A stretch of DNA of 37,023 nt from positions 1-37,023 of the forward strand of contig VGSE01000006.1 of assembly GCA_016875135.1 (NCBI GenBank). Reading direction: 5' to 3'. The notes beneath the pieces are model-generated. The model was not told the origin of the DNA. It was given only the letters and a program-made list of their open reading frames with translations, and searched no databases. Source of the DNA: Deltaproteobacteria bacterium (GTDB lineage: Bacteria; Bdellovibrionota; FAC87; UBA2466). Positions 1 through 20,242 of this stretch are shown here, in pieces. The translations under genes and the position numbers were made by a program. Position 1 is the stretch's first letter, and each line of letters begins with the position of its first letter.

Positions 1-127
1 GATAAGTTTTCCTGGAGTTTCATTTGAGAATTCACCTCACCGTTAAACGGCCAATAAACTCTGCGCCTTAAACCAATTTCATGGCCGTTTAAACCTCTTA
101 AAAAGCCCACTCAAAGGGTGCAGGTAT
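1..127 (+). repeat. Structured dispersed repeat, copy 1
   Basis: This copy is identical base for base to positions 213-339, and a diverged copy lies at 20116-20242. It contains an internal inverted repeat with arms 44-53 and 82-91 (ten bases, perfect complement, 28-base loop). Its 3' part (94-116) pairs with 128-150, just outside the copy, to form a long hairpin. The copy starts exactly at window base 1, while copies 2 and 3 share further bases upstream, so it is probably cut by the window or contig edge. No ORF of note is inside. Function is unknown. Confidence 0.9.
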
Positions 128-150
128 CTTTGAGTAGGCTTTTTAAGAGG
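94..150 (+). other. Long hairpin spanning the end of repeat copy 1
   Basis: Arms 94-116 and 128-150 are 23 bases each and complementary at 22 positions; the remaining position can form a G-U pair in RNA. The loop is 11 bases (117-127). Copy 2 of the repeat has the left arm (306-328) but lacks the right arm, so the hairpin belongs only to the 212-base unit at the left edge. No T-run follows, so it is not a classic terminator. It could be a transposon-like end, an RNA processing site or a replication-stalling palindrome. Confidence 0.8.
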
Positions 151-203
151 CTGGTCCGATATATTTTTTCCTAAATTGCAAAGACTTATAGAGGACCAAG
201 GTT
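137..203 (+). repeat. Left arm of a 67-base inverted repeat around the ABC exporter
   Basis: The reverse complement of 2420-2486 matches this stretch at 64 of 67 positions without gaps (hand alignment). The pair encloses repeat copy 2 and the ABC exporter gene, a span of about 2.35 kb. Such an arrangement fits a mobilised cassette or an invertible segment. No transposase or recombinase is encoded between the arms. Confidence 0.85.
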
Positions 204-212
204 ATAAGATGT

Positions 213-339
213 GATAAGTTTTCCTGGAGTTTCATTTGAGAATTCACCTCACCGTTAAACGGCCAATAAACTCTGCGCCTTAAACCAATTTCATGGCCGT
301 TTAAACCTCTTAAAAAGCCCACTCAAAGGGTGCAGGTAT
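213..339 (+). repeat. Structured dispersed repeat, copy 2
   Basis: Identical over 127 bases to positions 1-127, giving a tandem period of 212 bases. Similarity to copy 3 extends beyond these limits: upstream to a shared TTATAAGAT near 202-210, and downstream by a few bases (TATGAA). It ends 137 bases before the ABC exporter start. In both copy 2 and copy 3 the last bases run into an ATG followed by a lysine codon; copy 2 hits a stop after three codons, so this is not a gene. Confidence 0.9.
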
Positions 340-2309: not shown

Positions 2310-2619
2310 AAGGGTGCCTATCGACTTCTCGGCCGAAAAAGTAGCGGGTGCCATTGGGATTTCATCATAACTGCAGACTTGTGGCCGCTTTTCGTTTACC
2401 GTCCAATTCGAGTTATTTCAACCTTGGTCTTCTATAAGTCATTGCAATTTAGGAAAAAATATATCGGACCAGCCTTTTAAAAAGCCCATTGGTACGAAGG
2501 AACTTCTCTCTGAAAAGCATGACAAGCGGGCTTGATACGTTGGGTTCAGTACAAACCTCTCCTGTGGGCAGTAACCCGTCATCTCCTTTTTTAAATTTTG
2601 GTTCGAATAGTTTGACTAA
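2310..2619. other. 310-base spacer with inverted-repeat arm, no gene seen
   Basis: No ORF with coding character is visible. The middle (2420-2486) is the right arm of the inverted repeat around the ABC exporter. The part at 2518-2595 can form a partial nested stem: ATGAC (2519-2523) with GTCAT, and GGGTT (2541-2545) with AACCC. It does not match the conserved cores of 4.5S, 6S or RNase P RNA that I know. Confidence 0.6.
2420..2486 (-). repeat. Right arm of the 67-base inverted repeat
   Basis: The reverse complement aligns to 137-203 with three mismatches and no gaps. The matched stretch includes the GGCTTTTTAA bases that form part of the right hairpin arm at 128-150, so this is an inverted partial copy of the second half of the left-edge 212-base unit. 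It lies 110 bases after the exporter stop codon and 133 bases before the tRNA 3' end. Confidence 0.85.
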
Positions 2620-20069: not shown

Positions 20070-20115
20070 ACGCACCAAATCGGAACACCCTAACTCACTG
20101 CGCTTTATAAGATTT

Positions 20116-20242
20116 GATAAGTTTTCTTGGAGTTTCATTTGATAATGCACCTCATCGTCAAACGGCGAATAAATTTAGCGCCTTAAACCAACTTCATGGC
20201 CGTTTGAACCTCTAAAAAAGCCGGCTCAAAGGGTGCGGGTAT
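20116..20242 (+). repeat. Structured dispersed repeat, copy 3 (diverged)
   Basis: Ungapped alignment to copy 1 covers all 127 positions with roughly fifteen differences by eye, and further similarity to copy 2 extends upstream to TTATAAGAT. The internal stem is kept: TCAAACGGC pairs with GCCGTTTGA. Position 44 changed T to C and its partner 91 changed A to G, a compensatory pair change. It is 46 bases after the TadB stop and 33 bases before the YD-repeat gene. Confidence 0.88.

Follow-up and report, generated by a model that had tools for sequence, protein, structure and literature searches.

A dispersed repeat in a Bdellovibrionota genome is a 223-bp MITE, probably moved by an IS1-like transposase

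The DNA analyzed here (the window, 37,023 nucleotides) is contig 6 (C6:1-37023) of the source genome G000, an assembly of 2.66 Mb in 290 contigs. The window starts with two 127-nt repeats (1-127 and 213-339) that are 100% identical, and a third copy, 88% identical, is present at 20116-20242, just as the sequence-only reading of this DNA had described. No ORF of 90 or more amino acids overlaps these copies. A gene for an ABC exporter follows the second copy, and a YD-repeat gene lies behind the third. The 127-mer had been regarded as a repeat family in itself. The dispersed, inverted-repeat nature of the family was borne out, but the 127-mer corresponds only to positions 97-223 of a 223-bp element. 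In an alignment of the copies with their flanks, the full element begins with ATACCTGCACCCTTTGAGTGGGCTTTTTAAGAGG and ends with the reverse complement of this sequence. In many copies, the 34-nt 3′ end of the 127-mer has a reverse-complement copy shortly upstream, completing the whole of about 223 bp. These terminal inverted repeats are 34 bp in length, and 94.7% of their cells are paired across the copies. The features of the window are listed in Table 1.

Table 1. Pieces of the element and their parts in the window
Feature	Position	Strand	Remark
Right part of the first MITE unit (element 97-223), truncated by the contig start	1-127	+	Base 1 is the contig end
Internal stem-loop of copy 1	43-92	+	Arms 43-53 and 82-92; stem of the sequence-only reading
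Tandem junction: right repeat of unit 1, then left repeat of unit 2 without its outer 11 bp	94-150		
Shared junction 11-mer GGTGCAGGTAT, right end of unit 1	117-127	+	Unit 2 lacks the corresponding left tip
Second tandem MITE unit (element 12-223)	128-339	+	212-bp period with the first
Unit 2, left terminal inverted repeat (34 bp), of which positions 12-34 are present	128-150	+	
Internal stem-loop of copy 2	255-304	+	Identical to copy 1, shifted by 212
Right terminal inverted repeat of unit 2, 34 bp, ending in GGTGCAGGTAT	306-339	+	100% identical to positions 1-34 on the minus strand
Fourth piece: left-part remnant of another copy (element 19-87)	2420-2488	-	Beyond the ABC exporter gene (477-2309)
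Copy 3: MITE without its left arm (element 86-223 left)	20105-20242	+	Right terminal repeat at 20209-20242
Internal stem-loop of copy 3	20158-20207	+	C-G at the pair noted in the sequence-only reading

A search of the whole source genome with the 127-base sequence, which had been proposed as a check, returned many copies beyond the three in the window, at least about 44 in all. In the examined parts of the genome, the element has at least 96 matches of 50 nt or longer, of which 39 are full length; these counts are a lower bound, as copies are also hidden by contig breaks. The terminal-repeat motif has about 220 matches genome-wide, against 13 for a reversed control pattern. The copies are spread over dozens of contigs in both orientations, and no long ORF runs over any of the 29 copies for which flanks were available.

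Is this element mobile? Perfect 9-bp direct repeats flank 13 of the 39 full-length copies and a further four have 8 of 9 bases in common, while 0.56 was the number expected from shuffled flanks. The site of copy 3 is empty in five relatives (L031, L055, L032, L040, and L033), in which both flanking genes are kept and lie next to each other. Some MITEs have internal deletions that left only 4-31 bases of one end (C24:12996-13130 (L130), C37:10353, C58:13310, and C77:8384), and the last three of these shortened copies retain perfect 9-bp duplications, as is expected if one arm of the palindrome was deleted after insertion. In summary, the element is short (MITEs have about 50-600 bp) without a transposase ORF, has terminal repeats and a target duplication of constant length, occurs in many dispersed copies with insertion polymorphism, and shares its ends with an autonomous IS (see below). 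The copies, the duplications, the empty sites, and the IS with the same ends thus identify it as a MITE.

The sequence-only reading had also placed the repeats upstream of accessory genes. This pattern did not hold up. No preference for gene starts was seen among the copies, and the 27 copies that could be scored on both sides by a simple ORF heuristic show no orientation bias in their flanking genes (nine +-, nine --, five ++, and four -+). The YD-repeat gene behind copy 3 has the same upstream neighbor in relatives lacking the element. The ABC exporter gene sits between the second MITE unit and the inverted remnant, and it has no close relative among the genus genomes searched (29% identity at best). 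It could have been carried in as composite cargo, the left side of which is the contig end.

It was found that ISs with the same kind of ends exist in two genomes of the same genus (G005:C3 and G001:C80) and in one of the same family (G010:C6). They are 1.15-1.28 kb in length, within the range of IS1-family elements (about 0.7-1.3 kb, with terminal repeats), and have one transposase ORF of 303-330 amino acids; an example of their ends is ATACCTGATCCCTTT...AAAGGGATCAGGTAT. The best-matching family for the transposases is NCBIfam transpos_IS1 (NF033558, E-values from 2e-11 to 1e-10). Since their scores of about 42-44 bits lie under the curated cut-off of 100 bits, and no Pfam match was above its cut-off, the family is filed here as IS1-like and not as proven IS1. 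The only plasmid relative that was found is annotated as IS1 family. In the congener G004, an IS (L170) and a MITE (L106:4424) are identical in their outer 25 bp (ATACCTGCCCCCTTTGAGTGGACCT) and diverge inward. IS and MITE have only their ends in common, and no source is known for the MITE interior. In the source genome, the assembly breaks off on two contigs within IS copies that closely resemble each other and have the right end AAAAGGGCCAGGTAT, and the MITE on C118 carries an end of this IS type. The contigs C13 (L171) and C210 (L172) end at the same point within an IS1-like transposase gene; this shared break point suggests that several full IS copies of the source genome are unassembled. 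As the assembly contains the IS only as remnants and contig-end pieces, with no complete IS, I infer from the shared ends that the IS1-like IS is the probable mover of the MITE. Target duplications of the IS1 family are 8-9 bp in length. The MITEs have 9 bp; no clear 9-bp duplication could be made out at the three ISs in relatives. My searches of the open-licence literature turned up no MITE directly attributed to an element of the IS1 family.

The tandem arrays are the least ordinary feature of the element. Head-to-tail joints of the form CTCAAAG-GGTGCAGGTAT-CTTTGAG with a 212-bp period were found, with small variations, on C6, C12, C21, C26, C62, and C97, and a similar joint sequence lies at copy edges on C17, C81, and C219. 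At these joints, one 11-bp end is missing and a single 11-mer is common to both units. Adjacent units are nearly identical (127/127 in C6 and 211/212 in C26). Three whole arrays are enclosed by 9-bp duplications, namely that on C26 with two units and those on C12 and C21 with one unit plus a partial one (AAGATTTTC, GAAAACTTA, and CAAAAGAAG). The array on C49, which is joined differently, is likewise enclosed by such a duplication (CAAATTCAC), while the arrays on C62, C97, and C108 showed none. C49 and C108 have a second joint type in common with the same spacer at different sites, suggesting that arrays move as units. In C6, the junction (94-150) is predicted to form a strong, terminator-like hairpin of 23 bp with a run of T on each strand (-32.5 kcal/mol, z -6.4). 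Tandems situated between genes might thereby terminate transcription. It is also conceivable, though I consider it rather unlikely, that the arrays are the trace of an unusual intermediate, in which excised elements would be closed as 212-bp circles, the right end being joined, in the hairpin CTCAAAG-GGTGCAGGTAT-CTTTGAG, to a left end shortened by exactly 11 bp. After amplification, they would insert as arrays of two units, or of one unit plus a partial one, and produce a single 9-bp duplication of the target.

Several known systems can be compared with this element and its IS. Like the IS1 family, the ISs have NF033558 as the best transposase match and a zinc-finger-like N-terminus, and the duplications (those of the MITE) are 9 bp in length; unlike the IS1 family, the transposase stays under the curated cut-off and is encoded by one long ORF. 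The IS ends described here are presumably unrelated to the classical IS1 ends. ERIC, about 127 bp in length, and REP/BIME are likewise dispersed intergenic palindromic repeats, but the present element has clear terminal repeats and 9-bp duplications and lacks the alternating REP arrangement; no sequence relation to them was noted in this alignment-free comparison. The exclusion of REP/BIME and CRISPR in the sequence-only reading was correct. A parallel in kind may be drawn with MITEAba12 of Acinetobacter, a 113-bp MITE that goes with ISAba12 and has 9-bp duplications (PMC6382973). Both elements are short and non-coding, have many copies, and share their terminal inverted repeats with an IS. 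However, the present element differs in length (223 bp), in its longer 34-bp terminal repeats, in its unrelated sequence and different parent IS, and in its tandem arrays with a shared 11-bp end. Tandem dimers, in which right and left ends are joined head-to-tail, are made by IS30-type (copy-out-paste-in) elements (PMC9333248). Compared with such dimers, the joints here have mostly lost 11 bp of the left end, and the arrays persist in the chromosome with their duplications.

Does the internal stem point to an RNA? The stem is present, and the pair T44-A91 of copy 1 is indeed C-G in copy 3. However, the direction of the change from T-A to C-G, as had been assumed, is reversed. C-G is the usual state, found in 64 of 68 copies, and T-A is confined to three copies, the identical pair on C6 and one at C5:17873; thus, T-A in copies 1 and 2 is the derived state. 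Paired changes were counted against shuffles and slid controls in about 68 copies spanning the stem. If selection kept the element, once spread and co-opted, as a structured RNA or as a palindrome to which a regulator binds, this would fit with the two-sided change at two loci, with the pairing of 98% of the stem cells, with the strong terminator-like hairpin of the tandem junction, and with the variability of the stem columns, which is the lowest (1.9%, against 8.8% in the loop and 4.9% in the rest) and leaves some room for constraint. On the other hand, a two-sided change was found in only one of ten pairs, in three cells at two loci (shuffled mean 0.24, maximum 2); two of these cells count as a single event, namely the identical C6 copies. 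In the stem, another six cells still pair after a change on one side, and pairing is broken in 13. The terminal repeats have more paired changes, with 39 two-sided cells in six pairs (shuffled mean 17.6, maximum 28). The stem is absent from the only diverged homologue (in G004, 73% identical), whose internal fold has -4.8 instead of -19.4 kcal/mol. No Rfam family matches the element at the gathering score, the only such match in the window being a tRNA, and relaxed thresholds gave chance matches to microRNA hairpins and leaders at or near the tandem junction. According to PMC8794818, template switching in replication can create paired changes of a palindrome in one step, so that, in my reading, they say little about selection in this case. 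With the lack of preference for gene starts or for an orientation added, selection on RNA structure is not supported, and I regard it as very improbable. Many copies with essentially no meaningful excess of paired changes are the very outcome that the sequence-only reading had named as speaking against its proposal.

Two further explanations concern the kind of mobility. The copies might be integron-like sites for the recombination of cassettes (attC-like), each with a cargo gene, since they are structured, of similar size, and share a fixed 11-mer where they are joined in tandem; in addition, copy 2 is followed by an accessory gene (ABC exporter). But single copies are flanked by 9-bp target duplications, and the copies lie on dozens of contigs in both orientations with no consistent cargo downstream. 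Moreover, the YD-repeat gene is a conserved chromosomal neighbor in relatives without the element, and neither cassette arrays nor an integrase was seen. I give this explanation practically no chance. The core motifs of attC were also compared by eye and misfit, and dispersed copies with target duplications rule integron sites out. Alternatively, a transposase of another family that produces 9-bp duplications may move the MITE, the matching IS ends being a coincidence. The IS is present only in fragments in the source genome, and further ISs produce 9-bp duplications, for example ISAba12 with MITEAba12 (PMC6382973). However, the IS and MITE ends of G004 are identical over 25 bp, and one MITE of the source genome has the IS-type end, which leave little probability for a coincidence.

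Thus, the repeats are, with a probability of roughly 0.94, non-coding MITEs that underwent a burst in this genome, moved in trans by a co-resident IS1-like transposase. The transposase would recognize the terminal repeats (ATACCTG...CAGGTAT), and every insertion duplicates 9 bp of an intergenic target, as the flanks show. The burst left at least several dozen copies in the genome. Many of them later degenerated through deletions, either internal or of one arm, which is the usual fate of long palindromes. Tandems probably form when a right end joins a left end without its outer 11 bp, and an array can be inserted as one unit, given the 9-bp duplications that enclose some of the arrays. The paired change in the internal stem is more readily understood as a mutation in a palindrome, inherited or templated, than as a product of selection on RNA. 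Apart from its odd tandem form, the element is ordinary. It is parasitic DNA and neither an RNA nor a gene switch, and a structural or regulatory reading is not needed.

With these results, a well-supported mobile element takes the place of what had been a candidate for an RNA or a regulatory repeat. Its mover, in a lineage of predatory type (relatives of Bdellovibrionales), is probably an IS1-like transposase. The results also call for caution: when a few copies of palindromic mobile DNA differ by a two-sided "compensatory" change, this does not count as evidence that RNA structure is under selection. The overlap of the tandem joints, fixed at 11 bp, is a possible sign of a circular intermediate.
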